From Tribonema minus (lineage: Eukaryota > Sar > Xanthophyceae > Tribonematales > Tribonemataceae): a DNA stretch of 64,000 bases. Below are positions 12,248 to 63,791 of this stretch, in pieces. A program made the position numbers and the translations under genes. The stretch spans positions 124,001-188,000 of the forward strand of contig JAFCMP010000018.1 of the NCBI GenBank assembly GCA_017506865.1, read 5' to 3'. Numbering within the stretch: position 1 is the stretch's first letter; each line of letters opens with the position of its first letter. The notes beneath the pieces are model-generated. The model was given only the letters and a program-made list of their open reading frames with translations. It searched no databases and had not been told where the DNA came from.

Positions 12248-15200
12248 TCACGACTGTGCCAATGGCGCCGCAGTGCTCGCTGCCGCCGCCGCCGCAGTAT
12301 CCGCCGCCGCTGCTGCCGCCGCCGCCGCATCTGCCGCCTCCGCCTCTGGCTTGGCAGCGAAGCCCACGTTGAAATCATACGCAGCGAACGCGTCCTCACC
12401 CAGCGGCGACAGCGCTCCGCACGCCGTCGTCGCCGCTGCAGGCAGCGCGGCGCCGCTGCCTGGCGCCGCCGCGCCGGTGGCAGCAGCGCTTGCCTGCGCG
12501 CTGCCGCCGCCGCTGCTGCCGTCCGCGCGCACCACCTCATCCGGGTCCCACGTCCAGGACGGCTCACACGCGAATGACGCGGTGCGCGCGTCGTTGATGA
12601 CGCCGGAGCCCCTGCCGTTGGCTGCGTTTGCGGCGTCTGCTGGGGTTGGCAGCGGCGGCAGAAGCAGCAGCAGCAGCGGTTTCAGCGGCGTGAGATGGTG
12701 GATGCTGGGCTGGCGCCGCGGCGGCGGCGGCAGCGGCAGCAGCGGCGGCACATATGGGAGCTTTGACAACGGCAACCTCTGACCAAGCACACTCCGCCAG
12801 TCGACAATGCAGCAATATGCGCATGGCGCAGGCGTCGTAACCCCAGTCGTGGCCACCGTTAGGGGATCCGCCGGCAGCAGCGCGCGCGCGCATTAACAAG
12901 CACGCGGCGCCGCCAGGGCAGCATCTGCAGCAGCGGCGGCAGCAGCGCTCACCCGCTGCGGCATCTGGCGGGGGCGGCGGCACGAACGGCGGCGCCGCGT
13001 GCGCGAGCAGCGCCCAGTGCAAACAGAACCGCAATGCGCGCATGGCACAGGGGCGTCACAATTGTACTTGCGGTCACCGCTAGGGGATTCGTCGGCAGCA
13101 GTGCGCATGCGCAACAACAAGCCACACGATGCCGCGGCAGCGGCGCTCACCGGCTGCGACGTCCATCGGCGCCGGCGCCGGCACGAACGGCGGCGCGGCG
13201 TGCGCGAGCAGCGCCCAGTGCACGGGCGCGAAGAACGCGTGGCGCTTGATCTCGGCGGTGCCGCGGCGCGTGCCCATGCGCAACGCGGGCTCCTTCTCCA
13301 GGAGGCGCGCGATCGCGCCGCGCGCCGCCGCCGACAGGCGGCAGTCGGCGCCAAACTCCAGCGGCTCTTGCACGATGGCCATGAGCGTGCGGCGCTCGCG
13401 GTCTTTCGCGGCAGCGGCGGCGGCGTCGGCGTCGGAGGAGGTGGCGGCGGCGGCGGCGAGGTCCGGGGCGGCGGCGCGCGCGAAGGGCGTGCGGCCAAGC
13501 ATGAGCTCGTGCATAAGGATGCCCTGGCCGGGGCGCGCAGAAGGGGAGAGCGATGAGATCCAATTACTCATCTCAAGGAGGGGGGGGTTGAGCCTCAATG
13601 CAAAGAGTGCAGTTGCAACAACACAAGGGGGGGCAGGGGTGCAGCAGCATTGTCTGGTCAGCTTCATGCTGTAGAGGGAGCGCGACGTGGTTCCTTTCAC
13701 CATCTCAAGGGGGGGGGGGGGGTTGGGCCCCAAAGTTCCTCTCAGGGGGGGCTTGAGCCTCAATGCAAAAACAATTAATCGCAACGATACGCGGGTCGTA
13801 CAGGGGGGTACGGCAGCATTGAGGCCCGGATAAGGCTCACGCGGCTTGCTTGCGAGCCTCTCTGGTCAGCTGCTAGCTTTAGAATTTCAGATGACAACAG
13901 GATGGTCAAATGATCACGGGCCGCCGGCGTGCTTGCGCCCACAAGGGGCAGGGGGGGCGTGGCGGCACCACTGCCGCTACCGCTGGCGCCTGAGGCACAG
14001 CCTGCGGAGCGCTGTCGCGCATGTGACAGTTACGCACGCGACAGTTACGCACCAGTGCCCACCAGTCCATGGCTGCAGTGTGGTGCGTTGCGCCCGCAAA
14101 GTCATGGCATGGCAATGCTACTGCGGCTGACATCAAGCACGCTGCTGCAGGGATGCCATCAGCAGCTGCGCCGCCGCTGCTGCGGGAGCGCTGCCGCGCA
14201 TTGTCACAGTTACTCAACTGACAGTTACGCACGCGACAGTTACGCACCAGCGCCCACCAGTCCATGGCGGCGGTGTGGTGCGTCGCACCTGGTCACATCT
14301 CAGCTTCGCGCCGCAGCTTCGCGCCGCTGCTGCGGAGTGCTGTCGCACATTGTGACAGTTACTCATGACAGTTACATACGCACGCGACAGTTACGCACCA
14401 GCGCCCACCAGTCCATGGCGGCGGTGTGGTGCGTCGCACCGGTCACCATCTCTGCCGACAGGTACTCGAGCGTTCCGATAAACGTGTTGCCGTCTAGCGC
14501 TACATCCACGCGCACGCTGCCGCGCCCGTTGGCGCGTGCCGCCGCGTGCCGCCGCCGCGCCGCCGCCGCGCGCCGCCGCCGCCGCTGCCACCGCCGCAGC
14601 CCACGCACGGGCCTGGGGGGGGGGGTGCAGGGTGGGGGGGAGGGGAGGTGGGGGGGGGGGAGGGAGTTATGGCAATGGGCAGGTTTAGAGCGAGGGTTAG
14701 GACAAGCGTAGGTAGGTGTTGGAGCATATGGCACTTATATGCTCTTCCCCTTTGCACGCTTGATGGTTACGGCAGTTACACTTGCCAGTGGACAGACTAC
14801 GATACATTCACTTCTAGCAGCACACGGCTGGCGTCGGTCTTCTGTTGCAGTTGTCACCTTGATGTCTAGCTCTGCGGGTGTGGTGCAACAGGGCAGTGAG
14901 CAACAGCTCTCTACGTTGCAACAGTGGGCAGCATTGGCAAGGCCGGGTCACAGGAAGGGCCAGTCCACAGCAATACTCAGGAAGGAACTCAGAGCCTGGA
15001 ATTGGGCGACACATGCCGCTGCCTTTGGAGGCTGGCGCCGCTGATGCCGGTGCCGGGTGACAGAGGAGGGCGTGCAACGAGGGCAGGTATGTAGCAGCAC
15101 TGAAACACAGGCCACAAACAAGAGCAGTCCACAGTGAGGCCGTGCAGGGAGCCAGAAGGCGGGAAATGATGGCCCATGCCGCTGCGACAGCAGCGCCATA

Positions 15201-16162: not shown

Positions 16163-16194
<32 letters not shown>

Positions 16195-19100
16195 CGCCAG
16201 CGCTCAGAGCGCCGCCAGTGAGGCCCGCGTCGCGCAGGCGGCGCCGCGCGAGCTCCGCGGCAGCATCGGCGCCGATGCCGGCAGCAGCAGCGGCGGCGGC
16301 GGCGTCGGCGGCGTCAAAGTCCTCGTCCGGCGGCGGCGGCAGCTCCAGCAGCTCGTGGCCGCGCTCCGCGGTGCCGAAGTCACCGAGCAGTATGTGGCCG
16401 CTGGCGTGGACGAGGACGTTCTCGGGCTTCAGGTCGCGAAAGACCTGTGCGCGCGGCGCGGCGGCGGCGGCAGCGGCGGCGGCGTGAGCGCGCTCATCGG
16501 ATACGGCTGGCAGATGTGAGAATAACGCGACAGCAACAGCGGCAGCGGCGGTGTGAGCGCACTCGCCGGACACCGATGCCAAGATGAAGGGAACGCGGCA
16601 ACGGCGGCGGCCAGGGATGACGACGCGGCAGCGGCTGCGGCCAGGGGTGATGGGATCGCGGCAGCGGCGGCGGCCACGGTGGCAGTGGCGGCGGCGTGAG
16701 CTCACTCGCTGGACACTGATGGCTACAACACAGGTGATGGAAGCGCGGCAGCAGGAGGGCAGCAGGCCGTGTAACGCCACAACCTAACCCTAACCCTAAT
16801 CGCGCTGATCTGCACATCGCTCACAAAGTACCTTCAAGGTATGCATCAAGGGCGAAAGCGCACCATCGCGGCAAGCGCTCAGAGTTTGGCGTTCAACAAA
16901 ATCTAGGATGGTTGCTGGCGTCAGTGTTGTGCGTTGCGACGCGGCTGTGAAAGCACGTCAGCTGTTATTCCGGCGGTACATGGCCAGCGCTTTTGAGCAC
17001 AGCACGGCGCACAGTGCAAGAGCACTCCTCAGTAGCTCCCCCCCCCCCCCCCCCCCGGTCGCCAAACACATGTGGCAGCGGCGGCGACGACGACGGCGGC
17101 GGCGTGAGCGCACTCGCCGGACACCGGTGGCTACGACACACCCTCCCACCACCCTGCAGCCCCATGAACCTGCCCATGTTGACGACAACTACGGACCACT
17201 TGCGGCCCGGCAGTTACGGGCAGTTACATCCCCATGGCGGCAGCGCTCACCACGCCGTTGACGTGGACCCACTCGCGTGTGACGATGATGTCGCTTGCGT
17301 ACAAGCGCATCTCCGCTTCTGTGACATACCCACCTCTACACTGTACTTCTACACCACACCAACGTACCTTTTGCAGCGTGTCTACCGCACGGCACCACAG
17401 CAGCACGAGCACCTTGCCGCAGACCGTTCCGGACAAGAGTGGCGGACAGTTACAGGCTGCTACAGCCACACACATCGGCAGCAGCGCTCACCACGCCGTT
17501 AAGGTGGACCCACTCGAGCGCAACCACGATATTGCTCGCGTAGAAACGCATCTCGACTCCGTATACATACATGTACCCACCTAAGAATCGCATACTTCAG
17601 AAGTATAATACTTCTACTTGGAAGTACCAACATAACTTTTGAAGCGTGTCTACTGCGCGTCACAGCACAAGCACCCCGCCACAGATCGCTACGGATAAGA
17701 ATAGCGGACACTTACAGCCTGTTACAGTTACACACATCGGCAGCGGCGCTCACCACGCCGTTGAGGTGAACCCACTCGAGCGCCACCACGATCTCGCTCG
17801 CGTAGAAGCGCATCTCGGCCTCCGTCAGGCAGCGCTTGAGGTGCGTCGTCACGAGCGCCGCCATGTCGCCGCACGCCGCATACTCCAGCACCATGTACAC
17901 GTGTCGCGCGTCCTGAAATGCCGTGTATAGCGAGCAGACGAACGGGTGGCTGCGCCGCCGCCACCGCATTGGGGGGGGGGGGACAGGGGGGGGTGCGTGT
18001 GCGGGGGGGCGGAGGGGAACACGGAGCGCGAAATGAGACCATGTACACGTGCCGCGCGTCCTGAAACGCCGTGTATAGCGTGCAGACAAAGGGGTGGCTG
18101 CATGGGGGGGGTTGGTGGGGGCGGGGGGGGGGCGTGTGCGGGGGGGCAGTGGGGGACACAGAGCGCGAGTTGAGGGCCATTACTGTGTGCGTTCAGCGAG
18201 AGGGGGAGCAGTAAGAGCCATGTCGCCGCAGGCCGCGTACTCCAGCACCATGTACACGTGCCGCGCGTCCTGAAATGCTGTGTACACCGAGCAGACGAAC
18301 GGGTGGCTGCACCGCCGCCGCCGTACGGGGGGGGGGGGGCATACGCAGCAGGGCAGGGGGGGGGGGAGAGGGGAACACGGAGCGCGAGTTGAGGGTCACA
18401 TAGTATGTGTTTGGAGAGGGGACGAGCAGCGAGAGTGGTCATAGCACGTGCTCGTTAGGGTTTGGATCACTCGCGAGGGACGGCCCTCCCAGAGCAGCGC
18501 GTCAAGCGGCGCTCCCTCGTCAGCGGCTCTCGCGCTGCGCCCGACCGCCGCCGCCGCCCGCCGCCGCCGCAGCCCGCCGCCGCCATGTCCTACAGTCAGG
18601 GTTAGCTAACTCTAACACTGACTCTGTGTGCTCGCGTGCACGAAGAGTGACGGAAGAGCGTGACCTGCACTGGGGGATATGAGACCGCACCTGCTATGAA
18701 CCCCCCCCGGCTGGACTCAGCCAGGGCGCTGACTCGGTCACTGCGCTGGCTGGCGCGCTACGGAGCGGCGACGTGACACCGGAGCGCGCCGTGCGCACAC
18801 GTGCGTGCGCCGTTTCGCGCCTAGCACTGACCCGTGCACGAATGCGCTAGCACGACAACGGCGCAGCCCTGCACGCACGACACCAGCCCTCTCACGCTCG
18901 ACAGACGAGCGCTGACGCGCTGGCCGGCGCTACAGAGCGGCGACGTGAACACTGGAGCGCGCGCCATGCATACACGCGCGTGCGCCGTTGCACTAGACGC
19001 GTCGAGTGCTGACCCGTGTTCGCACGCGTCAACATGGTGGGGCACCGCCGTGCATGACTCCAGCCCTCTCACGCTCGACAGACGAGCGCTGACGCGCCCG

Positions 19101-19709
19101 GCCGCCGCTCGTCTGCGCGCTGAGCAGCGCGCGCCCGCTACTGTAGCTGGCGCTATGGCGCAGCGACGCGACGTCGCATCAGGAAGCGCCCTGCACTCAT
19201 GTATCAGTGAATCTTTTGATACATGAGCAGAGTTTTCAGGTCATGTTGCACATGGCAACCTGTTTGCGAAAACCTTCGACACGTCCTACATTTGCATGCG
19301 CATGGACTCATCGAGCACTGACTGACCTGCACGACACAAACGTCTCGTGCTCGATGAGCGCGCGGCGAATGCGCCCCTAACCCTGACCCTCACCCTAACC
19401 TTAAACCCTAGCCCTTGACACGTTGAGCGCTGCTGCGTTAATGCGGAGCACTGACCTGCACGACACGAGCGTCTCGCGCTCGATGAGCGCGCGGCGGATG
19501 CGCCCCTCCTTTATGCGCATCCTGTCCTTGCGCTGCACCTTGAGCGCGAAGAGGCGCCCGTTTGAGCGCTGACGCACGAGGTACACGAGCCCGCAGCCGC
19601 CGACGCCCAGGAGCTTGATGCGCTGGAAGTCTTGGCAGCTCGTCTTGGATGGGTCGAACTTGTGCATGAGGTTTAAAGAGGTTGCGGAGCGCTCCAGCTG
19701 GGGCAGTGC
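12248..19709 (-). CDS. AGC-family serine/threonine protein kinase, six exons, 5' end not found
   Basis: Minus-strand exons 19709-19456, 17949-17754, 16444-15966, 14612-14399, 13523-13151 and 12639-12248 join in phase into 635 residues. All junctions have GT and AG. Visible parts: glycine loop GVGGCGLV, ATP-binding Lys in FALKV, alpha-C region IERETL, catalytic VFRDLKPEN, metal-binding DFG, activation segment NTFIGTLEYLSAE (APE present as SAE), DWWAL/GILMHELMLGRTPF, RMGTRRGTAEIKRHAFF, and APPFVP at the start of the C-tail. The tail ends with DAFAAYDF, matching the AGC hydrophobic motif FxxF-S/T/D/E-F with Asp in place of the phosphosite. The closest feel is S6K/RSK/PKG. About 170 low-complexity residues sit between DFG and the activation Thr, as in Greatwall-type kinases. 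Five introns carry partial copies of exon edges. The start is unresolved: exon 1 begins after an acceptor, and no upstream cyclic-nucleotide or other domain was found before the plus-strand neighbour at 22189. Confidence 0.88.
12953..13022 (-). repeat. Truncated copy of kinase exon 5, 3' edge with donor
   Basis: Encodes HWALLAHAAPPFVPPPPPD and a GTGAGC donor in the same phase as the intact exon 5 edge (13151). It has no acceptor or upstream exon body, so it cannot serve as an independent exon. Confidence 0.8.
14053..14290 (-). repeat. Two truncated copies of kinase exon 4, 3' edge with donor
   Basis: At 14290-14249 and 14099-14053 the minus strand repeats ATHHTAAMDWWAL followed by GTGCGTAACTGTCGCG, the same donor as the intact exon 4 edge at 14399. 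Neither copy includes the exon's 5' part. Spacing is about 150-190 bases. Confidence 0.85.
15586..15852 (-). repeat. Truncated copies of kinase exon 3, 3' edge with donor
   Basis: At 15852-15827 and 15612-15586 the minus strand repeats the exon end RRIAS (CGCATCGCCAGCGC or a close variant) followed by GTGAG. A weaker copy lies near 15712-15696. The intact exon ends at 15966. Confidence 0.75.
17251..17561 (-). repeat. Two truncated copies of kinase exon 2, 3' edge with donor
   Basis: At 17561-17492 (MRFYASNIVVALEWVHLNGV) and 17325-17251 (MRLYASDIIVTREWVHVNGV) the end of exon 2 is repeated with its GTGAGC donor. The nearer copy is better preserved. The intact exon ends at 17754. Confidence 0.88.
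18038..18306 (-). repeat. Two truncated copies of kinase exon 2, 5' edge with acceptor
   Basis: At 18306-18218 and 18097-18038 the minus strand repeats the acceptor and exon start HPFVCSLYTAFQDARHVYMV, then breaks off into intron sequence. C-rich tracts (G runs on the plus strand) precede each acceptor, as they do before the intact exon at 17949. Confidence 0.88.
18742..19110. repeat. Imperfect tandem repeat of ~177 bases in kinase intron 1
   Basis: A block starting with 'GGAGCGGCGACGTGA' and ending with 'CTCACGCTCGACAGACGAGC' occurs from about 18742 and again from about 18919, with a third start near 19095. There is no coding signal. Confidence 0.65.
19331..19375 (-). repeat. Truncated copy of kinase exon 1, 3' edge with donor
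   Basis: Repeats RIRRALIEHETFVSC and the donor TGCAG|GTCAGT seen at the intact exon 1 end (19456). Upstream of it the sequence turns into TTAGGG-like DNA instead of exon body. Confidence 0.8.
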
Positions 19710-19804
19710 CTGCGCGGCGGCGCGGCAGACGGCAGCAGCGATCGGTTTAGACAGTATGTAAGGTATGTGTTGGAGCACGTGGCAGTTACATGCTCATTGG
19801 CCGG

Positions 19805-21283
19805 AAGTCCTGGCAGGGCGTCTCGGACAGGTCGAACTTGTGCATGAGGGTGAGGGAGGTGGCGGCGCGTTCGAGCTGGGGCGACGCCTGCGCAACGGCG
19901 CGTGGCAGCGAGCAGCAGAGGGTATGTAAGGTATGTACTTCTATGTAAGTAGGGTTTGGCTTGGATGGGTCGAATTTGTGCATGAGGTTTAAGGAGGTCG
20001 CGGAGCGCTCCAGCTGGGGCAGTGCCTGCGCGGCGGCGCGGCAGACGGCAGCAGCGTTCAGTTTAGGGGGTATATGAGGTATGTGTTGGAGCATGGGCAG
20101 TTACATGCTCATTGGCCTGGCAGGGCGTCTCGGATGGGTCGAACTTGTGCATGAGGGTGAGGGAGGTGGCGGCGCGTTCGAGCTGGGGCGGTGCCTGCGC
20201 GGCGGCGCGGCGCGCGGCGGCAGCGAGCAGCGCAGGTTGTGTGAAGTATGTGTGAAGGATTTGGGTGAGTTTCGCTCAGGGCGCGGAGCAACCCAGATCA
20301 TGATTGTCGCGGTTGCTGCGAGGGGAGTCAATACCTTGTCACATGATGATAAATTGCTTAGGGAGGTGGCGCCGTTTGAGCGCTGCCGCACGAGGTACAC
20401 GAGGCCGCAGCCGCCGACGCCCAGCAGCTTGATGCGCTGAAAGTCGTGGCAGCTCGTCTTGGATGGGTCAAATTTGTGCATGAGGTTTAGAGAGGTCGCG
20501 GAGCGCTCGAGCTGCGGCGGCGCCTGCGCGGCGGCGCAGCGCGCATGGCGGCAGCAATCAGCACAGGGCGTGTGACGTATGCACCTAGATGTACTTCAAA
20601 GCGTGTAGGATTTGATCAAGTCTCGCCCAGCAGCTTGATGCACGGCAGCTCATCTTCGACGGGTCGAACTTGTGCATGGGGGTGAGGGAAGTGGCGGCGC
20701 GCTCGAGCTGCGGCGGCGCCTGCGCGGCGGCGCGTGGCAGCGAGCAGCAGGGGATATGTAGAGTATGTATGCAGAATTTGGCTAAGACTCGCTCAGGGCG
20801 TGCAACGGCCCAGATGATGATAGTCGCCGTTGCTGCGAGAGGGGTCAACATCTTGTCAACTGCACAGGGAGGTGGCGACGCGCTCGAGCTGCAGCGGCGC
20901 CTGGGGGGCGGCGCGGCGTGCGCATGGCAGCGATCAGCTGAGGGTATGTAAGGTATGTGCATGCACGTGCGGTTCATCATCGCTTTTAAGAGCATGATGC
21001 TCAGCGTTACACTTATTGCAGCAGGGGCCAACATCTTGTCACTGACATGACACGCTGCTGACGAAGTGGCGGAACGCTCGCAGCGGCCGCAGTGCCTGGG
21101 CGGCGGCGCGGCGCGCGTGAAGCCGCGAGCAATGCAGGATGTGTGAGGTATGAAGGATGTATTGAGTCTTGCTCAGAGTGCACAAGGGCCCAGATACTCA
21201 GCATCGCCCTTGCTGCGAGAGGGGTCAATACCGTGTCAAAAAATGCTTACAGAGGTGGCGGAGCGCTCAAGCTGCGGCGGTGC
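19805..21283 (-). repeat. Array of eight truncated copies of kinase exon 1, 5' edge with acceptor
   Basis: On the minus strand, edge copies begin at about 19887, 20024, 20193, 20522, 20719, 20900, 21095 and 21283. Each has a CAG acceptor followed by a version of A(L/P)PQLER(S/A)ATSL; most continue to MHKFDPSK, and the copy at 20522-20363 runs on to GVGGCGLVYLVRQRSNG before breaking off. The breakpoints differ. The intact exon 1 (19709) is the member nearest the rest of the gene. Copies are 140-330 bases apart. Two, near 19770 and 20085, adjoin a small hairpin element. No copy reaches the exon's donor. Confidence 0.88.
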
Positions 21284-26255: not shown

Positions 26256-26765
26256 CATCTGCGCTCTTCGCACTCGCAGCAGGTTTGTGGGTGTGTGTGC
26301 GCACCAGCCAGACTGCAGCAACGCGTCGGCTGCACATCCTGGTACACATATCTGTGATGCATCCATCACCGTGTATTCTACACGCTTCACGTTGCCTTTA
26401 AATTGCCAACATGTACCTGTTGTGTGTCTCGCAGGCGCATCAGGCGTGTGTGCCACGAGGGGAGCGTCAATTTTTGACCACGGTGCAGCGTCGCTCGCCC
26501 GGCATACGGACATCTGCGCTCTTCGCACTCGCAGCAGGTTTGTGGGTGTGTGTGCGCACCAGCCAGACTGCAGCAACGCGTCGGCTGCACATCCTGGTAC
26601 ACATATCTGTGATGCATCCATCACCGTGTATTCTACACGCTTCACGTTGCCTTTAAATTGCCAACATGTACCTGTTGTGTGTCTCGCAGGCGCATCAGGC
26701 GTGTGTGCCACGAGGGGAGCGTCAATTTTTGACCACGGTGCAGCGTCGCTCGCCCGGCATACGGA
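26256..26765. repeat. Perfect tandem duplication of 255 bases upstream of the Noc2 gene
   Basis: 26256-26510 and 26511-26765 appear identical base for base. The unit length is a multiple of three, so ORFs on both strands pass through both copies (85 residues each). Each copy contains a good acceptor-like TGTGTGTCTCGCAG on the plus strand, so the unit may include part of a 5' UTR intron of the following gene. Perfect identity means a very recent duplication or an assembly artefact. Confidence 0.9.
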
Positions 26766-26906
26766 CACCGCCACCAGCCAGCTTGATTGCAGCCCTGCTG
26801 CGCCCACCTTAACCTTAAGTACGAGAAGCCGCCACCGGCTTGTTGCAGACACCCACCCTAACTCAAGTACTAACCAACCTCAAGTACCCACCCGCGGAGC
26901 GTCACC

Positions 26907-41600: not shown

Positions 41601-44600
41601 TATGTAGACCCTGGCCCTAACCCTGACCCTACCCCTTAGCACTACCACTGAGCACTGTGTCTACAGGCCCCCACCTTGAACGTGTCGCTGGACAGGGAGC
41701 ATGGGAACTTCAACACCGGCAGGCTGGTGCGCCCATTGCGGTCCATCACGGGCTAGGGTCGGGGTTCGGGTTAGAATTAGGGTTAAGATCCAAGGACCCA
41801 CCTTCACCGTGTGGAGAGGGAGCACGGAAATTTCAACATTGGCAGGCGCATGCTTACTGAGCAGTGTGGCTACAGGACCCACCTTAAACGTGTCGCTGGA
41901 GAGGGAGCACGGGAACTTCAACAGTGGCAGGCCGGTGCGTCCGTCGCGGTCCATCATGGGGCCCCGCGCGGGGCGCTTGAGGCCCACGGGGGGTGGCAGC
42001 GCTCCGGGGTTCATGGCCGTGTACTCCAAGACCTCCGTCTTCAGCTGCAAAGACGCATGGCAGCAGCAGGGAATGTTGATATGATGTGTTTTGAGATGGA
42101 TGTACCTGAACAAAGTTTTGAAGTTGCACCGGGGGTGGCAGCGCTCCGGGGTTCATTGCGGTGAACTCCAGCACTTTGAGCTGCAGAGACGTATGCGGGC
42201 AGTCGGGATGAGGGTATGTAGTGGATACTTCTTTATACTTGAAGTGTATGTACCCGTTGCCATATGATGTAAGTGAGCTGCATGCATCAGGTATCAGATT
42301 ATGCTTCAAATTCTAGTTGAACACACGGGGGGTGGCAGCGCGCCGGGGTTCATGGCCGTGTACTCCAGCACCTCTGTCGTCAGATGCAAAGATGTGAGCA
42401 GTCGGGAGGGTATGTTGTTACAGTCTGCTTGTATGTTGTTACAGTATACTTGAAGTATATGTACATGTTCGCATGTTGAGGTATTAGTATAGTGAGCTGT
42501 GTGCAACTGTAAGTTTCTGCCTTAAATTCTACTTGAAGGCAAGGGCGGCGGCAGCACTCCGGGGTTCATCGGCGTGTACTCCAGCACATCCGTCTTCAGC
42601 TGCAGACAACGCAGCAGGGTATGTTGGTCTGATATGCTTTGAGATAGATATACTTCAACTATGTTTTGAAGTTGCACGGGGGCGGCAGCGCTCCAGGATT
42701 CATGGCTGTGTACTCAAGCATCTCGGTCTTCAGCTGCGAGATCTGGACAGTTGGGTGGGTATGTTGTTGTGATAATGAATACTCAGAGTAAATAAACATT
42801 TGCATTGCGGTATACTCCAGCACCTCGGTCTTCAGCTGCAAAGATGTGGGCTGTCGGGACTTACAGTATACTTGAAGTCAGTCAGACTAGGTATGTATTT
42901 TGCACTTCTGTAAACACGTACCTTTGAGAGCGCATCGGCGGGCGCCGCAACAAAGCGGTGGTGGTCTCGGTCGCCGCTTTCCCACTCATGCACAGTGCCG
43001 GTGCTGTAGGGGGGGGGGGGGCATGCAGCAGGTGGGGGGGGGGTGGAGGAGACTGAGTCGACTCGTGAGTCACACGACTAGTCACTTGGCGAAGTGATGG
43101 CAGCTATGAGAGCCACCAGTCATGACTCACTTGAGAACTTGCAAGTCACTCAATGCGGCGGGCGCGCATGCAGAAGGCGACCTGTCGTCAACATCAGGCA
43201 ACGAGATGTTTCGAGACGATAGGGTGTCATGGCCGACCGCATGTTATTTTTCTGCGGGGGAGTCTGCAAATACTGTATCAGCTGTGTGTCATGAAATACG
43301 TACCAGACAGCAACTGCGCTGATAGGCGCAAGTCGCATGGTGAGTCAAAGTCGCGACTCAGTGCTCGTCATTGTACATCCTCCAACTGACCACACCAGTG
43401 ACGTTGAACCGATGAAAGCTGAAACTTATGGCAGCTCGCTCTCTGCAACCTAGCACGCTCTGTTGAAGAGCAGGCCAGACTTGAACATTTGGATACAGTT
43501 TACTTCAACGAAGTGCCTTACTGCTAGGATACGGTATACCTTACTGTTGCTACCAAACAGAATGAAAACCTCAGCCCGACCAGTTGAAGTACTGCTCACT
43601 GGAGTATCCCTGCACTAGAATTAATGAGTAGCCACAGTGCCGCCTGCTGTTCCTGCACTGCCTACACCTTAGGGTTAGGGCCTAACCCTAACCCTAACCA
43701 CGTTCCAATGCTTGGAGTCAAGAGCCCTACCTCAGCCTGCCTCTACCTTGCACCCGTACTTCAAGTTGATTCCAAACCGTCCCACCCCCGGAGTGCAACG
43801 CGCCCTTAGGGTTAAGGCTAGGACTAGGACTAAGGTTCGGTTGATAGCTTGGGTTAGAGTCAGGGAACCTGCTCATCATGCGAAGTTAGTGTGAAGGTTA
43901 ACGCTAAGGTCAGGGTGAGGGGTTAGGGTAAAGGGCTCAACTAGGGTTAGGGTGCCTGCTCATCATGCAGCCTAGGGGTAAGGTGAGAACTAAGGTTTGG
44001 GGTTAAGGATAAGGGTGAGGGTTAGGCTACCTGCTCATCCGCACGCCCATGTCAGCGCGCAGCCACAGCGCCGCCTGCTGCGCCAGCGACTCCGGCAGGA
44101 CCTCTGTCCCAATGCCGAGCGGCGCACTGAGCGCTGCTGCCTGCGCTGCCGGCGCTGCCACCATCACTGGCACAGAATTCTCCGCCGCTGCTGCTGCTGC
44201 CAGCGTTGCTGATGCTTCCGCTGCCGCTGCCACTGCGCTGTCCCGTTGCGCGGGTGCCTCAACTGCCGCTGCTGCACCAAGCGCTGCCGCACGGTGCGCA
44301 TGCGCCGCTGCAGCTGCCGCCGCCGCTGCCTCTTGGGTCGCCGCAGCAGCAGCAGCAGCAGCAGCCGCCTCCTCCTTCTCCGCTGCTGCCGCGCGCTCTC
44401 GCGCCTGTGCGGCCGCCGCTGCCTCCGCCGCACGCTGCTGCGCCGCTGCCGCTGCGGCTGCCGCCCTCGCCCGGTCCGCCGCGCGCTCCTCCTCTGCTGC
44501 CGCCGCCCGCTGCTGTTCTGCCGCAGACACCAGCGCGGCTTGTGCCTCGACAATTTCGGCAGCAAAGGCAGCGGCAGCGGCGGCGTCGCCGTCAGCAGCA

Positions 44601-49671: not shown

Positions 49672-52600
49672 TCACCGCTTGTGCTGCTTGTCGTCGCGGC
49701 GGTCCCCCCTGTCGCCCCCCTTGGACTCGGCAGACTTGCCCTCGTCGCTCTCTGAGCTGTCCCCTTCGCACTCCGAGTCTTCTTCGCTGCTGTCCTCCAA
49801 AAATCTGCCAGGCGCGCATGGAGAAGATGACGCAGTACGCGTGTTATAATATACTTTGTATGTTTATAAATAAACAAATAAACGAGTATTATACTCATTG
49901 AAGTACAATACCCCTTGAAACGTTCTTGAAGTACCTCGGAGGTATCACATATGCAATCAGCCAAAGACAGCCGATCAAGAGCTGAGCAAGACAAGGTGTT
50001 CTCAGGGTCCCCCTCGCTGCTGTCCGGAGGCTCCAAGAATCAGCCAGGCGCGCACGCAGTAGATGACGTTGATAATGCGACGTACGTTTGAGTCCACATA
50101 CATACATGCCATGAAGTTAGCACCTGTTAGTGTTAAATGGGTATGTATGTATGCCAGCAACGACGGCGTGCACAAGACCGCAGCGCCGTCCAGAACTCGA
50201 CGACGCCGCGCTGCGTGCACGCGCACACATACATGCCATGTAGTTAGCACCCATACATAGCGTCGTTGGGTAACATAATTATGCCAGCGGGGAAGCGTGC
50301 ACAACCTCAATAGCAGCACACGTGTTGTATACATCGTGATGTAGAATACCCCAAGGGTGTCCGCCCCTCAAGCGGCAGTAAATCGAGTGCTTTAAGGACG
50401 CTGATGTCGTTCAGGAACCTGCCAGACGTGCACGCGTTAGGGGGCATGGTATTGCATGTGTTGGTTCAGCAGACGCGATGCACCAACCCCTGCAGCTACA
50501 CGACAGCGATACCTACGCGGGCACCAACAGGCCATTCCTGTGGAATGAGAGTTGAGCCAAACAAGATTCTGCACGGAGCTCGAAGACGGCAGGCGACAAT
50601 GGGAACAGAACCAGCAATCTGCTCCTGAATACTCCACATACTGTCTTTAGGGAGCCTGCTGCGCATGGGTGCCAAGGCAGGATGGGACGTGTTCTGCATT
50701 CGTTAAAAAATCTGTCTGGAGGCTCGACAAAGCGCAATTATTGATGTCAAGCTTGCTACCAGACTCTACACACACCTTTGCGGCAGAGTGTCTCAACGCT
50801 CATCGACAACAACTTCAAACATCGCCACATACAGGCATGGTGCTGTGCATTTGATTCTCGCTTAGGACGCAAGAAAAAAAAAAAAAACATGTTAGGTGTC
50901 CAGCTTGCCAACAGAATCTGCATGCGCTTTGTGAAAACTTGAAAGCGTCTCAATGCGCATCGACGATCACCTCCAAACGACACTGCCACACGGCATAGAG
51001 TACCCCCACTGTACCTCTTCTCAGCGCCGCTCTCGAGCTGCCACCCAAGTCGCGCCATATACAAGAACGACACGCATCACTGTACCTCTTCTCAGCGCTG
51101 TTCTCGAGCTGCCGCCCCAGGCGCGCGAGCATCTTGGCGGCGCGCTCGCGCAGCGCACCGGCGCGCTCCGCGTCAGCGCTCAGCGCCGCCAGCTCCGTCA
51201 GCGCCGCGCAGTGGTCCGTGGAGTCGGCGCGCGGCAGCGCGGCGTGGATGCGCAGCAGTCGCTCGTACGCGGCGACGGTGAGGGCGCGCTCGCCGCCGCT
51301 GCCGCCGCGGCGCGCCATGACGCGCGCGAGGTGCCCCAGGCAGCTGCGCGCACGCAGGCGAACGGACGCGCACGCACACAGTTCAAATGGACACCGTTGG
51401 AGCTTTGGGCGGTTACATGCTCATTGTGCGTGTGTGCGCAGCAGGCGTTCGTACGCGGCGACGGCGAGGGCGCGCTCGCCGCCGCCGCGCCGCGCCATGA
51501 CGCGCGCGAGGTGCCCCAGGCAGCTGCGCACGCGGGGGCGAACACGCATGCACGCAATGTGGATCGTATTGTGATGTACTTGGGATTGATTCTTGCGTAG
51601 GCGCAAAGGAGCCCCAGGCAGCTGCACGCACGCATGCGAACGGACGCGCATGCATGCGGTACGGATCGCGTCAGGATGCGCTTTGTATGGGTGCTTGCGT
51701 GCGGCGCGGAAAAGCCCAGATGGTGTGTAAGCGCCCAGCTTGCTACCAGAATTCTACAGTGTCATGCGCAGCAGTCGCTCGTACGCGGCAACGGCGAGGG
51801 CGCTTGCCGCCGCTGCGGCGCGCCATGACGCGCGAGAGGTGCCCCAGGCAGCTGCGGCACACACGGTACGGATAATACTACAAGGAAGGCAATCAATTGG
51901 ATGGCTGAGCACACCTGGTCACCTAAAGCTCTACGGTCTTTAGATTCGTTTCTACGGTGAATTATATATACTTCGAAGTACTTTTGTTCAATTCTCGCTT
52001 AAGGCGCAAACAAGCTCAGACGATGGATGCCCAGCTTGCTAGCAGAGTTTACATGTATCTGTTGAACACGTTATTGTGTACTCCCTGCTGCGCGCACGTG
52101 GGCGGACGCGCACGCACGCACGCACGCACACATTACAAATGGCACCTGTTGGAGCACATGGCGGTTACATGCTCGTTGCCGTTTGCACGCTTGACAGTCT
52201 TGCTAGCAGTTGCGCTCGCAGGTAGACAGTCCACAGTGCACTCACTTCTCAGTAGCAGCGCACAACTGGCGTCGGTCTTCCGTTGCACTGGGCAGCTTGC
52301 CGCCTACCTCTGTTGGTGTGGAGCATCAGGCTAGTGAGCAGCAGGCTTTCTACACTGCAAAAACTTCAAAAATTCATACGAGGCTCGGGGCGGGGCGTCG
52401 TAAGCTGAGACGCACTGTTGCGCATCGGCGGCGCAGTGCAGCGCCGAAATGGCTGCCGAGAGCGCGGCAAGCTCAGACACGGAATTGCGTTGCGCGGGGC
52501 TGCTGCTGATGCGTGTGATGCGCCACAAGGGGGATTTGAGCGGCAGCCCAACCGCTTGAAGACTGGTATGCCAACAACAACACAAACCTGATTTTCCAGT

Positions 52601-53891: not shown

Positions 53892-55936
53892 ATGTCTGTC
53901 AACGGACTGAAGCAGGTGATGAGCCCATGGACGCCACCACATGCCGGCAGCGTCCCCCATAACCATCGCCAACATGCCGAGCAACACAATGACTGCAATC
54001 ACATCCAAGCTCACGGCGAAGCTGCAACAGCACCCATGGCCACGGTAGCGCGCACCGCTGCAGCGGGTCCGGCGGCTCCGTCACCAGCACCGATTGGAAG
54101 TTCGCCGCTCTTCATGTTCGCCATGCAGCAGCAGCAGAGCTCCGCAGCGATGCTATATACTGCCAGAGCAATGGCGATGCCAGTGCAGCAGGATCAGTCG
54201 AAGAAGCCACTGTCTGAGCAACCGGCGATTGAGCCGCCGTCGCTGCCGGCGTCGTGCTACATGATCTTCAGTGCGGAAGTGCGCGAGTCGGTGTACGCGT
54301 CCCTGCCACGCAATGCACAGGTGAGCCCTGGCCGCTCGCTCATAGATCGTCACTGGTGCGCATCTGCGCAAAGACTCCACATATACTTCAACTTGAAGTT
54401 TGTTGTTGTACTTCTTTGAAAAACGAATCAAAAGATCGTTGAGCTCTAGGTGACAAGGGATGGTTAGCCGCAAGTGCCTTCCACCAATAACCGTGATCGC
54501 CGCTATATAGTATATGTATGGATTGTGATGCGTGGGCGTGAGTGCTGACGTGCACGCTGCTGTGGATGGAGAGGGCAGGGGGACATGCGCGTACTTGGTC
54601 ATCGCACAGGCAGCCCGCGTGATGACACTTGCACTGCACCATTTTCCCTGCATGACTTCCGAGCGGACAGCATCGGCGCGTGTCCGGCTTGGGGCAGCAC
54701 GAGCGCTCGTGGTGTGTTGCCGGCCCGCGCCGCGCCTCGCACGTGGTCGTGCTCTGACACCGCAAGGGGTCTTTCACAGTGCTCACATCTGCATGTGAAA
54801 TATCGTTGCATCATGCTTCAGTACCTTCCAGAAGTAGAGATAGAACTTCAATGCCCTGGTCTGTCCGACATCGCAAGTAGGCTTCCCCGGTGCTCACTCC
54901 GGCATTCGCGCTTTTCCTGCGTACGAGCTTTTCCATTGCATCGAGCTTCAGCTATTCGTCCAGAAGTAGGTGTAGGACTTCGAGTACCCCTTGTACGATC
55001 TTTTCCATTGCATCGAGCTTCACCTATTCGTCCAGAAGTAGGTGTATGACTTCAAGTATCGCTTGTGAGGTGCACTGCGCACCGCGCGACGCAAAGTCAG
55101 CGGAGCTGCGCGCCGCGCTCGCACACGCTTGACTGTCTACGAAATGCAAGTTGGCATTCCTAGACGAGCAGTGGACAGAGAGGGCCTGTTTTGGACCCAA
55201 GAGAGCGTCAGCGCCCAGCGCTGGAGTACATTGGAAATACTGTAGCCATGCATAATGTTTGTCAGCAAGGAAGCCAACGGAGGATCATGACGGAGGATAA
55301 CGAAGAAAAAGCCGTACTGCAAGGAAGATGCCGCTGTTGCCGCTGGTGGACACCACCTCAATGCACTATGTTCACCAGGTCTCCGTGCCTCACGCGCGCG
55401 TCCCTCCGCACCGCCGCGCTGGTGAACGACTCCTCAATGCCCTATATTCATTACGTCTCTGTGCCTCGTGCACGCGCCCCCTCTGTGCAGCCGGCGGAGC
55501 TCGCGCGGCGCACCGCGGCGCAGTGGCGCGCGCTCGACGACGCGGGCAGCGTGCCGTACAGAATGAAACAGATGTCGCTGTTGCCGCCGGTGTACAGCTC
55601 CTGGATGCACTATATTCACTACATCTGCGTGCCTCATGCGCGCCGTCCGCCCCTCCTCCCTCCCTCCGATGCACTTCTCACTATGTCTTCGCACCGCTCT
55701 CACCGCGCCGCCGCGCAGCCGTCGGAGCTCTCGCGACGCACCGCCGCGCTGTGGCGCGCGCTCGACGACGCCGGCCGCGTGCCCTACATGGAGCGCGCCC
55801 TGCGTGCGAGCGAGGGCTACACGGAGGCGCTGCGCGTGTACGGCCAGGCGCTGCTGCGGCGCGCCGCCGCAGCGTCCGGCGCTGCCGCGGAGCGGTGGGC
55901 GGCCGCCGCGGCTGCCGCTGCCGCTGCCGCCGCGCC

Positions 55937-55968
<32 letters not shown>

Positions 55969-58016
55969 TGCAGCGGCTGCCGCCGCCGGTACAGCGGCCG
56001 GCGCCGCCGGTGCAGCGGGCGGCGCCGCCAGCGCAGCGCGCCGCTGCCAAGGTCCCTGCCGCCGCCGCCGCCGCCGCCGCCGCGCGGCCGGCGGTGCCCG
56101 CGCCCGTGCGACTCCAGGTCACCGCCGTCGACATGTTCAAGGTGAGCGCGCATGGTGAGAACTGACATGTTCATTGCGTGCATCAATATGGTGAGCGTGA
56201 CTGCGTGTGGGCGTGATGTGGTAGGTAGTGTCAGGCATGGCCACGCGGTGTGACAATCCCTGCGCGCGAGGGCCGCAAAGGCGGCGCGATTGCGCGGCAG
56301 TGCGGCACACGCGCCGGCGCTGCTGACCATGCATCAGGCGCTATTTACATAGTGTTCTGACTTGAAGAAGTTGCGCGCGCTGCGCCCGCAAAGCGTGACG
56401 CACCGCCGCCTCGTGCAGCTCCCTTGCGCAATGCGCCACCGCAGCGCTCCACGCTTCTATCCTCAAGAAGAGCGCTGCTGCTTTTGCCGCGCGGCGCAGG
56501 CGGCAGCGCGCCCGGCCACACACGGCACCTACCCTTTCCCCAACCCTAACCCAAACACGCGCGCCGGCGCCTCACGCAGCCCCTGCGCACTGAGCCGCCT
56601 CAGCGCTCCGTGCCTTCATCCTCACGACGAGCACTGCTGCTTTTGCTGCGCGCAGACGGCGGCGCGCCCGGCCATGCGCATCGCCTACCCCAACGCGACG
56701 AAGCTCAAGATCGCAACACTCGTAGGGCAGCTGTGGATGCTCATGACATCCGAGCAGCAGCGCCTCTACGAAGACCTCGCCGCGGCGGAGGGCGAACGGT
56801 ACACGAGAGAGGTAGGGAGTGCTTCTGGTGGCGTAAGGATGTTGATTGGAAACGAATCAAAAGATCGCCGAGCTCTAGGTGGCAAGGAGTGGTTAGCCGC
56901 AAGTGCCTTTCACCGATAACCGTGGTTGCCGCTGCTGCAGTCATTGGCCACAAGTCAAACGGTATCATCATACCCGCAGTAGTCAAAAGACTTCTGCGTC
57001 CAGGCTATTTAGCGTTTGAGGGCTTGATCATAAGTTACTCACACAGCGTCTTGGAGGTGGGCTAGGTGTCAAGGTGCTAGGTTCAGTAGTGTCATCTGGC
57101 CTGTTGCCGAAGCTTGCGGACCTTGCCGTACAGGAGAGAGGTAGGTATGTAGGGTAGTGGCTTTCTTGCGGGCCTCATGCACCTTTTGGCCACAGCTACA
57201 TAAGTAGCGCGGCGGTAACCTGTACATGATTCACATACTTTGGAGTACATCGCTAAAACCAGGTGCCCGCCTCTCTAGTGGAAGTGGAGGCCGAGCGGTA
57301 TAGGAGATGGGTAGGTGTGTAACGTAGTGGCTTTTTTCAGGCCTCATGCACCTTTGCCCGCAGCTAGCGTGGCGGCAAACTGTACATATTTGACGTACTT
57401 TGAAGTGCGTCGCAGAGGCCGGGTGCCAGCCCCTCAAGCAGAAGTAGAGTTTCGGCGTCTTTCCCGAACTGCATTCCCCCATGAGCGCGTGCTCTGTGAA
57501 TTTTGCATACTTTGACGCGGTATATACGTGCTTCAAAGTATATTGCTTGGGACAGGGTATATGCCCCTCAAGTGGCAGTAGTTGAAGTACAGCCCGCTCG
57601 GGTAGTACACACGCGTGTGCGGACCGGTGTGAGACCCCCTGCCCATCGTCCTGCATGTGGCTGAGGTAAGAACAAGGACTAAGTACTGCTAGGATCAGGT
57701 GGTAGGGCTAGCTTTACCGCATTGCTCAGATGGCTCGTGCCTGTCACAGGTGATCATGACTGTATCTTTCGGTAAACTGTGCATACTGTGACTCACCAGT
57801 TGCTGATCAGGTCAGAATCAGGGGGCCAGCAGCTGTGTGATGACGATGTTCAACGCTGCCTTACTTCAACTCATTTTACGGCAGGTGGAGTCGTGGGCAG
57901 CAGCAAGGGGATTCGGACGGGGGTGCGGTGACGGCGCAAGTGTACGGGCTGGGAGGGGGGTCAGCCCGCCAAACGGCAACGAACAGGGTCCTGTGACGTG
58001 TCAAGCGCGGTGGTGA
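53892..58016 (+). CDS. Two-HMG-box DNA-binding protein
   Basis: Exons 53892-54320, 55719-56141, 56656-56811 and, tentatively, 57885-58016 join in phase 0 into about 379 residues. HMG box 1 spans the first junction: SLPASCYMIFSAEVRESVYASLP, then SELSRRTAALWRALDDAGRVPYMERALRASEGY. HMG box 2 spans the second: TAVDMFK, then TAARPAMRIAYPNATKLKIATLVGQLW, ending MTSEQQRLYEDLAAAEGERYTRE. Both keep the helix 2/3 pattern (LW or LWRAL, E/D-PY or RLYE). Such proteins bend DNA in chromatin or in mitochondrial/plastid nucleoids; no targeting peptide is visible. A long Ala/Pro/Gln linker (about residues 190-270) joins the boxes. The final exon (VESWAAARGF to a TGA) rests on a good acceptor only. The start is the first ATG of the open frame. 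Introns contain edge copies of exons 2 and 3 and a ~80-base repeat at 54423-54505 and 56848-56930. Confidence 0.72.
54922..55062 (+). repeat. Two tandem ~71-base units in HMG intron 1
   Basis: TACGAGCTTTTCCATTGCAT followed by CGAGCTTCA and a TATTCGTCCAGAAGTAGGTG block occurs twice in a row with few differences. Further imperfect repeats of a 'CTATATTCAYTACRTCTSYG' type occur at about 55365, 55440 and 55608. Confidence 0.8.
55493..55565 (+). repeat. Truncated copy of HMG exon 2, 5' edge with acceptor
   Basis: After TGTGCAG it reads PAELARRTAAQWRALDDAGS then VPYRMKQ, against PSELSRRTAALWRALDDAGR then VPYMERA in the intact exon starting at 55719. It breaks off after VPY. Confidence 0.88.
56497..57307 (+). 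repeat. Truncated copies of HMG exon 3, both edges
   Basis: 5' side: 56497-56545 repeats GCGGCGCAG|GCGGCAGCGCGCCCGGCCA and then ends in CCCTAA-like DNA. 3' side: 57105-57124 and 57283-57307 repeat the exon end (GCGAACGGTACACGAGAGAG type) and its donor GTAGG; these two sit in tandem units of about 178 bases. The intact exon is 56656-56811. Confidence 0.78.
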
Positions 58017-60740: not shown

Positions 60741-60786
<46 letters not shown>

Positions 60787-61533
60787 TGTCTAAGGCTGCT
60801 GGCCGACTGCCTCGTGGGTGGCTGGAGCCGGCACGTCGCCTGGGCACGCCCCGCTGCCAGCACTCCCAGCGCTGCTTGCGGAAGGGACCGTTCTTCAGCA
60901 AAGCAACAGTGCTGCGCACTTGCGGCGTTCACCTCTCCAATGCAGATGACCGACTACTGATCAACGATGCACATCCACCCCTATCCGCAGCGGCGCGTGG
61001 CTGGTGGCGGCGGACTTCTCGCACGCGCGCCTCGACGGCGCGCTCTTCGGCGCGCTGCCCGCGCTGCCGTGCGCCGCCGTCACCGCCACCGCAGCCTGCA
61101 GCGCCGCCATCGCCGTTGCAGCAGCAGGCGCCATCGCGCTGTACGCGGCGGACGGCTCGTGGGCGCCGCTGGCGCCGCCGCTGCTGCCGGCGGCAGATCA
61201 GCGCTCGACAGCGGTGATGTGCCTCGCGGTGCGCAGCCGCGGCGGCGGCGGCGGCGGCGGCGTCGATGTGGCTTACGTGACGCCGGGTGCGAGGCGCGCG
61301 GGCGCTGATATTATACATGTTGTGTCAGTGATGTTTCCGGAGGCGGGAGCGCATGGCACTGGCGAAGGTTTTGGCGGCGGCGGCGGCGCTGCTGGACGTG
61401 GCGGCAGCGGCGGAGGTGAGGGCACAATGACTACTGTCGGCGGCGGTGAGGGCTGCACGCTGTTTAGCACTGAGGACGGCTGTGCCAGCGCTGGCACCAG
61501 CAACAGCGGCGCTGGTGACACGGCGCCACTGCC

Positions 61534-61572
<39 letters not shown>

Positions 61573-63791
61573 GCAACAACAGCAGCACCGCATTGAGCTC
61601 AATGGCACGCACACGTCCCGTGTGCGAGCGCTGGCCTTCGGCGGCAGCGGCAGCAGCAGCGCAGGCGGCGCGCCGCTGCTGGCGAGCGGCGACGCCGACG
61701 GCCGCATCGTCGTGTGGCGCTTTGACATCACCGCGGCAGCGCCACAAGCCGCAGCGTTTTCAGCGCTGCTAGCGACAGCGCCGCCGCCGATGCGCAGCGC
61801 GCCTCCAGATACAGCACCGGCACCTTCACCGCCAGTTGCCGCGGCGCCGGCGGCGGCGCCGGCGCCGCAGGCCGCGCGCGTTCTGTGGTCCACGGAACCC
61901 GCCGCGGCGCCCGTTCTCTGCCTGGACTGGTCCGAGAACGGTCTGCTCGCGGCGGGGTTCGGCAACGGCGCGGTGCGCGTGTGGTCTGCGGACGGCGCCG
62001 CCGCCGCCGCGCCGCCGCGCAGCAGCAGCTCCGTGGTGAGCATCAGCATCAGCTGCTGCGCCGCCGCCGCAGAGCCGCCGGCGGTGCGGCTGGGCATCTG
62101 TACGGGGGATGGGGAGGGGGTGGTGTGGGTGCGCGGCGCGGCTGCGGCGGCAGCGCCGGTGGCGGCGGTGGCGGCGGCAGCGGCGCAGTGGACGGAAGCA
62201 ATGAGGGTCAGAGGGCGCAGCGGGCGGCTCACGAGCGTTGCGGTGCTGCCGGATGCGCGCGTTGTCGCAGGTGCGCGTGCGCGGCGAGTTCGAGGACTCC
62301 AGTGCTGAGAGTATGAGAGTCTGACTATGTTCAGATGCGCAGCTGCTGAGCGTTGCTGCAGCAACCACTGCGCAAAACCTTGCACGCATGCGCCGGCAAC
62401 GGCTGTGGCACCTCAAATATCATCGATGGGTGTGCTGGCATCACGTGGTCTGCTTTTGATCAAGAGTGAGCCTCCTACCCAGCGTTTGTGCCCTGTCCGC
62501 TGGTGAGTCCTTCGCGATAGCTCAGAACGGCCAGCGTCTCTCCACTTCACGCATATGAGAAATGCTCCGTTCCATGCCATCAACGCACACGACTCGGACA
62601 TGCACTGGTGGTATGTCATTAGCTATGCATACCCAGTGACTCCCGCATTGGTGTGCATAGTGCTGCACCGCTGCGACGCCTGGATCACATGCCCCGTTGA
62701 CGCAATGCTGTGCTGTCGCGCGCATCTCCTTCGCGCAAACAGGCTGCACAGATGGCGCCGTCTATGTGTGGGACAGCGCGGGGCGCTGCATCGACGTTAT
62801 TGACCAGCACCTGGGACCCGTGACAGGTGCGCACTCCACCTGCGCCACACCATGTGCGCCCGTGCGCCCGTGCTCAGTGAGCTCCTTGTGAAGTTCAAGT
62901 CGTGGAACTGTCTAGAGGCAGCGTGCGCGTGTGCAAGTATACTTCGAACGCTCGTTTGTCCTGCGAGCGTGGGTGCGCCGTGCCGCTGCAATTTCCTCGC
63001 CACCTCTTACACCATGCATTTTAACAACAATATGCTGACACAGTACAGGCGGAAACTTCAAGTGTGACTCTCCACCGCTACCCCCCGCCGTTGCCGTCGT
63101 GTCTGGCACCACTGTCGCGAGTGTACTTTCGGTGCTCATTAGTCATCCGAGTGTCGGTGTGCCGTGCCGCTGTACCTTCTTCGTCGACTCATGCAGCGTG
63201 TAGCAAATGATACAGCAGCACAGTACATACAGGCGAGCCCGCACAAACTTCAAATGTGACTCTCCGCGTTTATGCCGCAGGCGTCGCCTTCGTGTCTGCC
63301 ACCTCCGTTGCAAGTGTCCTTCTGTTGGTCGTTTGCCCTGCAAGCGTGGGTGCGCCGTGCCGCTGCACCTTCGTCATTACCTCACTAGCACAGTACAGAC
63401 GAAACCTGCACAAACCCTCCACCGCCACACCGCAGGCGTCGCCGTCGTGTCCAGCGCCACCGTCGCGACCACAGCCCGCGGCGACGCGGTGCGGCTGCAC
63501 GCGCAGCCGCCGCCGCCGCCGCCATGGCAGCAGCAGCGCTCAACACCACACGTCGTCGCGCCGCTGGCGCTGCTGGCGCTGCACGAGGGCGGCGGCGGCG
63601 CGCTGTGCGCTGCCGCGGCAGCGAATGGCGGCGCTGTCTCCGTGAGGGACGCGCTGACGGGCGTGGAGGTGTGCTGCGTTGAGCCATGTGGTGGCGGCGG
63701 CAGCGGCGGCGCGGGCGGGGGGGGGCTGGGGGGCTTGGAATTTTGCGGCGGCGGCAGAGGCGAGCCGCAGCTGGTGACGTGCGGCGCGGAG
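58994..63791 (+). CDS. Pentapeptide-repeat plus WD40 protein, incomplete at right edge
   Basis: Exons 58994-60135, 60991-62270, 62743-62826 and 63436-63791 join in phase; the last ends at a donor (GCGGAG|GTGCGT), so the gene continues beyond the window. The start ATG 58994 has a strong context (GCCATGG) and gives MGCSGS, fitting N-myristoylation plus a palmitoylatable Cys. Residues 1-340 are Ser/Ala-rich and probably disordered. Pentapeptide repeats follow and run across junction 1 without a break: GADLC, GVRAR, GADLR, GAVLS, EARLR, GCDLR, GADLR, GAWLV, AADFS, HARLD, GALFG. WD40 blades come next, for example LLASGDADGRIVVWRFD, LLAAGFGNGAVRVWSAD, RVVAGCTDGAVYVWDSAGRC (across junction 2) and VATTARGDAVRLHA. 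A Gln run lies near 61538-61580. It is probably a membrane-attached scaffold. Intron 1 holds a (GCT)n tract at 60730-60783; intron 3 has edge copies of exon 4. Confidence 0.8.
62950..63350 (+). repeat. ~190-base tandem units with truncated copies of WD40 gene exon 4, 5' edge
   Basis: The block GCGTGGGTGCGCCGTGCCGC recurs near 62968, 63150 and 63347. At 63271-63318 a copy of the exon 4 start follows a GCCGCAG acceptor (GVAFVSATSVASVL against GVAVVSSATVATTA in the intact exon at 63436). A weaker copy without the AG lies at 63074-63125 (VAVVSGTTVASVL). Confidence 0.82.

Follow-up and report, generated by a model that had tools for sequence, protein, structure and literature searches.

How do introns come to hold truncated copies of the very exons that they separate? 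This question is raised by a 64-kb stretch of the genome of the alga Tribonema minus (contig JAFCMP010000018.1, positions 124001-188000, GC content 60%; hereafter the window), taken from an assembly of 158 Mb in 554 contigs. An earlier note on the window had described, in the introns of genes labelled kinase, LamG-like, TPR, HMG and WD40, tandem partial copies of the adjacent exon's edge, which we refer to as echoes: copies upstream of an exon carry its acceptor and first part, and copies downstream carry its last part and donor. The self-comparison proposed in that note was run on the direct strand and bore out the repeats gene by gene, with lengths of about 20-500 bp and identities mostly of 64-96% in all five named regions. 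The echoes lie in direct orientation, are local and polarised, carry splice sites along with them, and occur in several gene families and on several contigs. We argue below, with a probability of roughly 0.72 for the explanation as a whole, that they arise by local copying within introns.

The exons of the kinase gene, on the minus strand, were positioned by Pfam matches, Protein Data Bank (PDB) chains of AGC-type kinases, splice sites and reading of the sequence; E1 joins E2 in phase 2 and E2 joins E3 in phase 0, and the expected kinase motifs read through. Aligning exon edges to the neighbouring introns yielded 14 echoes (E1 acceptor, six; E1 donor, one; E2 acceptor, two; E2 donor, two; E4 donor, two; E5 donor, one), which flank four of the five placed exons. 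This first alignment examined the expected side only, as did the 13-junction edge test, the tally of CAG and donor motifs and the codon counts over 37 echoes and 16 junctions described below. Both sides were searched in the comparison of close repeat pairs, the self-BLAST of resolved introns, the tally of hidden Markov model (HMM) rows, the scan of 102 chaperonin exon flanks, the whole-exon search of the window and two of the newer sets of codon counts (new chaperonin junctions and kinase loci). When whole exons E1, E2, E4 and E5 were used in the two-sided search, the identical 14 echoes were recovered, all on the expected side and none of them whole; upstream of E4 this search also returned two matches flagged as low-complexity and one inverted match. 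The acceptor CAG is present in 8/8 measured acceptor copies and the donor hexamer in 5/5 measured donor copies. Elsewhere in the genome, a search that skipped very common words matched only short, mostly intronic pieces of the E1 and E2 units, and their origin is therefore local. An origin from paralogues was considered for these units and is ruled out on the same grounds.

Five further acceptors of the window were scored by exon-anchored alignment. At a score of 36 they gave eight copies (LamG 5, TPR 1, first HMG 1, WD40 1, second HMG 0), and at a stricter score of 44, with both sides searched, LamG retained four, TPR had two (one flagged as low-complexity), the first HMG one, the second HMG none, and WD40 none besides a flagged low-complexity match. 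The CAG shares a single alignment column in most of these copies. Additional copies at the second HMG, TPR and WD40 exons are visible solely by DNA self-alignment, and repeat arrays at 38946-40380 and 41647-41960 are without an assigned exon. At the lower score, echoes exist in the introns of all five genes, in numbers (14 plus 8, or about 22 at the thresholds used) that fall short of the 35-40 first counted. The gene labels fared unevenly: Pfam matches back kinase, HMG and WD40 (the second HMG match being under the Pfam cut-off), and LamG and TPR are without a Pfam match at E<=0.05, a scan that short exon pieces, one of them cut by the scan boundary near 42,000, could escape. As a separate observation, a sequence of about 210 bp is common to 14717-14921 in the kinase-gene stretch and 52147-52360 in the TPR-gene stretch, and a short piece of it recurs near the kinase E1 echoes and on other contigs.

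The same pattern reaches well beyond the window. We scanned ten chaperonin loci (L029-L038, holding 55 of the 56 Cpn60_TCP1 rows at E<=0.001), and among the 102 flanks of their 51 exon cores 30 held direct copies, 59 in total, while the flanks held no inverted copies, and controls using reversed sequence or another locus gave none either. When one chaperonin exon was compared with PDB chains, GroEL chains of bacterial type scored higher than Chaperonin 60B1 (5cdi) of Chlamydomonas. Thirty-one copies lie downstream and carry the exon's last part, 26 lie upstream and carry its first part, and none is opposite or whole; the remaining two are mid-exon by the cut-off used, one of them being explained by an over-long HMM core. 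Their exon-derived part spans 25-141 bp (median 62 bp), and flanks with copies were found at L030 (8), L033 (6), L029 (5), L035 (4), L037 (3), L038 (3) and L031 (1). Similarly, in a tally of HMM rows from four families (302 rows, some as weak as E of about 0.6, with 131 kinase rows left out), 15 of the 18 listed pairs consist of an intact exon and a truncated copy of the right polarity; none had the wrong polarity or a whole copy, and the other three, two echo-echo pairs and one mis-split exon, were set aside. Among 20 further kinase loci (L009-L028), picked as partial and hence multi-exon matches, the final scan detected six core copies in three (L013, L014 and L022); an earlier BLAST scan had flagged L013, L009 weakly, and a 38-bp piece in L022. 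The polarity rule, counted by side, accordingly holds within the window and outside it, whole-exon copies are missing from the window, the chaperonin flanks and the HMM pairs alike, and wherever we could test it the intact exon stands at the inner end of its series, as had been claimed.

The echoes respect exon borders closely, and the coding exons beside them appear to stay intact. We considered 31 pairs of neighbouring exon cores whose profile positions are nearly continuous, and for 26 of them the sequence alone predicts a join across a GT-AG intron in open frame (for L038 the acceptor used ranked second and lies 12 bp from the top-ranked one); four of the remaining five had no join and one low-scoring join was dropped. 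An edge copy was found in the adjacent intron for 13 of 52 exon edges, two of the 13 being weak; 10/13 reach the exact exon edge and 11/13 (85%) come within one base of it. By self-BLAST, a repeat covers 9 bases or more to both sides of the splice site at 8/52 junctions, and no copy falls on the wrong side. The acceptor CAG is kept in 18/19 echoes and the donor GT in 14/18, and in most of 37 echoes the intron part of the unit also exceeds the shuffled 95% level. Exons and echoes of the window are collected in Table 1.

Table 1. Placed exons and their edge echoes in the window (window positions; empty cells, nothing reported).
Feature	Position	Strand	Basis or remark
Kinase exon E1, intact source exon	19456..19709	-	CAG acceptor, GTCAGT donor
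Kinase exon E2, intact	17754..17949	-	Pfam/PDB placement, splice sites
Kinase exon E3, start only placed	from 16444	-	Pfam/PDB placement, splice sites
Kinase exon E4, end only placed	ends 14399	-	Pfam/PDB placement, splice sites
Kinase exon E5, intact	13151..13523	-	PDB placement, splice sites
E1 first-part echo with acceptor	19800..19882	-	Edge alignment, two-sided search
E1 first-part echo with acceptor	19960..20025	-	Edge alignment, two-sided search
E1 first-part echo with acceptor	20118..20194	-	Edge alignment, two-sided search
E1 first-part echo, longest; differences 1:0:10 by codon position over 145 nucleotides	20368..20518	-	Edge alignment, two-sided search
E1 first-part echo with acceptor	20624..20714	-	Edge alignment, two-sided search
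E1 first-part echo, outermost	21247..21283	-	Self-comparison, edge alignment, two-sided search
E1 last-part echo with donor GTCAGT	19327..19378	-	Edge alignment, two-sided search
E2 first-part echo with acceptor	18217..18306	-	Edge alignment, two-sided search
E2 first-part echo with acceptor	18038..18097	-	Edge alignment, two-sided search
E2 last-part echo with donor GTGAGC	17492..17562	-	Edge alignment, two-sided search
E2 last-part echo with donor GTGAGC	17251..17322	-	Edge alignment, two-sided search
E4 last-part echo with donor GTGCGT	14248..14304	-	Edge alignment, two-sided search
E4 last-part echo with donor, second	14053..14094	-	Edge alignment, two-sided search
E5 last-part echo; alignment ends 13 bases before exon edge, GTGAGC then present	12949..13021	-	Edge alignment, two-sided search
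'LamG' exon (first base 42044), acceptor-edge echo series	42127..42859	-	Self-alignment and exon-anchored tests
'LamG' series members	42127-42170, 42324-42383, 42540-42599, 42678-42733, fifth near 42803-42859	-	Self-alignment and exon-anchored tests
'TPR' exon (first base 51343), acceptor-edge echo, flagged low-complexity	51428..51523	-	Self-alignment, two-sided test
'TPR' exon, acceptor-edge echo, second	51764..51851	-	Self-alignment and exon-anchored tests
First HMG-box exon (first base 55719), acceptor-edge echo	55491..55560	+	Pfam, self-alignment, exon-anchored tests
Weaker copy before second HMG exon (56656)	56399..56534	+	DNA self-alignment; negative in exon-anchored tests
Copies before exon starting at 63436, assigned as a probable part of the WD40 gene	62932..63375	+	Self-alignment; one passes at score 36, none at 44

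What kind of process could leave such a pattern? We propose that these introns often gain direct-orientation local copies, tens to a few hundred bases long, which to judge from the family periods would be placed mostly 80-265 bases from their source. A duplication over an acceptor would leave the intron end and exon start present twice, and if the second copy is the one used, the first becomes an upstream echo; a duplication over a donor would give the mirror image, a downstream echo with the exon's last part and donor. The real exon would stay at the inner end because only that outcome leaves it whole, copies that split an exon would be removed by selection, and duplications within an exon would be harmful. 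Whole-exon copies would be rare or removed, as short units should seldom cover a whole exon. The duplications themselves may come about by unequal exchange or template switching, and, less surely, part of the divergence between exon and echo may go back to a time when each of the two was coding sequence, for instance on separate alleles. On this geometry, any local duplication that crosses a splice site and leaves the protein intact should produce the observed polarity, with no need for machinery specific to junctions, and the polarity rule does not imply, as had been suggested earlier, that some process acts on the junctions between introns and exons.

Several results weigh against local copying in this simple form. 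In many close pairs the copies lie further apart than they are long, so that a clean tandem duplication is not a sufficient account and the description of the copies as tandem is only partly right. Echoes are also unevenly distributed: three of the ten chaperonin loci (L032, L034 and L036) gave no copies in the exon-anchored scan and 17 of the 20 kinase loci gave no core copies. Differences in GC content do not appear to explain the contrast among the ten chaperonin loci, since the echo-rich L035 and L029 have 50.5% and 55% and the echo-poor L031 has 60.3%; judged by eye and without a statistic, neither GC nor G-quadruplex (G4) content was supported as a correlate of echo richness among these loci. 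Junction-touching duplication families, discussed below, outnumber a random expectation. Finally, the exon-derived part of an echo is usually more alike than its intron-derived part, both between echo and exon and between echoes, and with one echo per junction at 16 junctions the differences fall 16:7:55 on first, second and third codon positions. Neither a third-position bias nor a greater likeness of exon parts is predicted for neutral copies that all formed at a single time.

The third-position bias was seen repeatedly, at varying strength. Over 37 echoes the differences from the exon number 56:34:132 and those between echoes 119:76:196, and one echo-echo pair at each of nine junctions gives 13:3:41. 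The previously unused sets combined show a weaker bias of 72:49:157, made up of the other window genes (14:4:29, or 9:2:11 with one echo per junction), new chaperonin junctions (52:36:114) and kinase loci (6:9:14), so that the third-position share is 71% in the first result and 48-62% in the new sets. Mutability at CpG sites was tried as a source of the bias and rejected, as CpG context does not explain it. One way to account for these differences is unequal exchange, during meiosis or in repair between homologues, of alleles that have diverged. Such an origin of the echoes would refine rather than replace local copying: exon parts would then differ as alleles do, mostly at third positions, and intron parts would differ more. 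The counts at the 16 junctions and the nine echo-echo pairs speak for such an exchange, as do two assembly copies of one kinase gene (L007 and L017, 95% identical), whose coding differences are 6:1:28. Kinase rows on contigs C90 and C179 also match in order and spacing, as those of haplotype contigs probably would. Against it stand the weaker replication in the three new sets, the array L029 D3710, whose echo-echo differences (49:36:36) have no codon bias, and our search for another allele, which found none either for the kinase stretches of the window or for L030 (L016 gave partial matches only, at 70-88%). In addition, the third positions of real exons may simply evolve rapidly, with echoes as snapshots of the exons' past, given that L007 and L017 differ at 10.9% of third positions and 3.7% of non-coding DNA. 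The value of 0.46 that we took as the upper limit for neutral snapshots is a rough estimate of our own and may be too low if third positions do evolve in this way. Between diverged alleles and snapshots of a silently changing exon we favour the former only mildly, and exchange between alleles is offered as a tentative refinement about which we are more doubtful than convinced. Apart from this question, kinase rows on contigs C90/C179 and C144/C223 (L007, L017) lie in matching order and spacing, suggesting that diverged haplotype contigs have been retained in the assembly, and L007 matches C179 and C359 at 95%.

A process that targets junctions, for instance through RNA-DNA hybrids or through breakage or template switching at the splice sites, would make junction copies preferentially. 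We counted 25 duplication families in 29 introns; 17 of them touch a junction and eight are intron-only, compared with 9.9 junction-touching families expected from a simple random-placement formula without correction for detection bias (17/26 compared with 10.3 at a looser threshold); the 17 include a family of GC-rich sequence of low complexity at the E3 acceptor. Four of the eight other families end about 15 bp or less from a junction (L029 5586, L031 1014, L032 3055 and L038 961), and some copies align solely from the splice site inward, all of which would suit such targeting. Repeat coverage in 26 resolved introns nonetheless has no peak at junctions, being 0.23 within 25 bp, 0.27-0.38 at 100-250 bp and 0.05 beyond 500 bp, and the expectation comes from one simple formula and 29 introns. 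Moreover, because one member of a junction family sits in a conserved exon, such families stay recognisable for longer, and part of the excess is therefore expected. A preference for junctions is neither shown nor excluded by these data, and a dedicated targeting process seems to us unlikely. A functional role for the echoes, with splice sites in use and coding constraint on the exon parts, would agree with the mostly intact splice sites and the codon-phased divergence, yet we regard it as very improbable, since an echo has neither a second splice site nor the remainder of its exon, and four of the six spacings between copies of the kinase E1 edge are not divisible by three. Least credible of all is an assembly artefact in which haplotypes or repeats were misplaced side by side, because although the assembly does contain diverged near-duplicate contigs, misplacement would also split exons and disregard polarity, and the copies vary in divergence, form series and occur on several contigs.

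The window holds other repeats. A perfect (100%) 255-bp tandem duplication at 26256-26767, directly upstream of a Noc2-like open reading frame, is either very recent or an assembly error. Inverted arms of 2 kb (2488-4477 and 9092-11089, 80% identity) lie about 8.6 kb across, each holding a direct repeat of about 300 bp, and may belong to a large mobile element. One dispersed repeat of about 85 bp is present at 54421-54504 and 56850-56933 and also in L009, L014 and L027 at 76-96% identity, and another of about 100 bp (36923-37024) recurs in L014, L019, L020, L024 and L026 at 80-95% identity. At 37161-37258, internal to the contig, lies a TTAGGG-type array of 16 CTAACC units; together with the GC content and matches to dynein, the CTAACC repeat would fit an alga.

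Tandem exon duplication is local and in direct orientation, and copies whole exons with both splice sites. The echoes share its locality and orientation and differ from it in that none of them is a whole exon. Intron gain by tandem genomic duplication, as outlined in the extracts of PMC3443670 and PMC2891723, likewise involves local duplication of exonic DNA with splice-like signals, but there an exon-internal AGGT is duplicated and a new intron results, whereas here existing introns gain DNA. Such an origin would make the intron start resemble the downstream exon and the intron end the upstream exon, and instead 57 of the 59 chaperonin copies lie on their own exon edge's side and none on the opposite one. 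Introners (PMC9860276, in extract) are also repeated intronic DNA with splice sites, but they copy themselves into many genes; the kinase E1 and E2 units, for which this was examined, were not found as the same element in many unrelated introns and match only the short pieces mentioned above.

The closest known counterpart is exon stuttering on the dot chromosomes of chicken (PMC12954441, Genome Biol Evol 2026, evag038), and as far as the literature searched shows, the pattern in T. minus is a further case, in another lineage, of this already described kind. A limited search on exon stuttering terms returned no other paper, and an algal report of the pattern was found neither among the titles listed by further searches nor in the extracts of the Haematococcus genome paper PMC7617258. 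According to the extracts of the chicken report, an exon edge and the adjacent splice site are copied into the neighbouring intron in 115 genes, with 1,345 hits in 236 introns. In both organisms a lateral exon part travels with its donor or acceptor while the coding exon stays intact, and in both there are imperfect local repeat clusters, including purely intronic ones, as in our junction-touching and intron-only families. The source lies within one base of the exon border for more than 90% of chicken cases and 11/13 of ours; exon parts measure 20-187 bp there and 25-141 bp here, with medians of 36 and 62 bp. Density is apparently higher here (30/102 exon flanks compared with 190/5,572 dot-chromosome introns), with the proviso that methods and denominators differ. 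Unlike chicken, T. minus offers no known dot-chromosome setting. Stuttering in chicken is linked to unusually GC-rich genes; the window has 60% GC, and the echo-rich and echo-poor chaperonin loci named above give no clear trend with GC. Intron lengths vary between individuals in chicken, and ours is a single genome; codon-position counts, given here, do not appear in the extracts of that report, which treat the mechanism as a matter of speculation only and mention an unpublished note on gerbils. It is possible, and we suggest it tentatively, that exon stuttering is no peculiarity of birds but a general way, reached convergently, in which the introns of some genomes grow, with diverged homologous chromosomes and not slippage on the same strand supplying the copies, so that introns would archive allelic exon edges that are partly coding-constrained and carry working splice sites. 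Echoes reveal one source of intron DNA, and their near-perfect splice-site arrays can mislead gene prediction and the alignment of spliced reads. With a second genome in which they are dense in some genes, hypotheses built on GC content, recombination or repair can be put to a comparative test between alga and bird.

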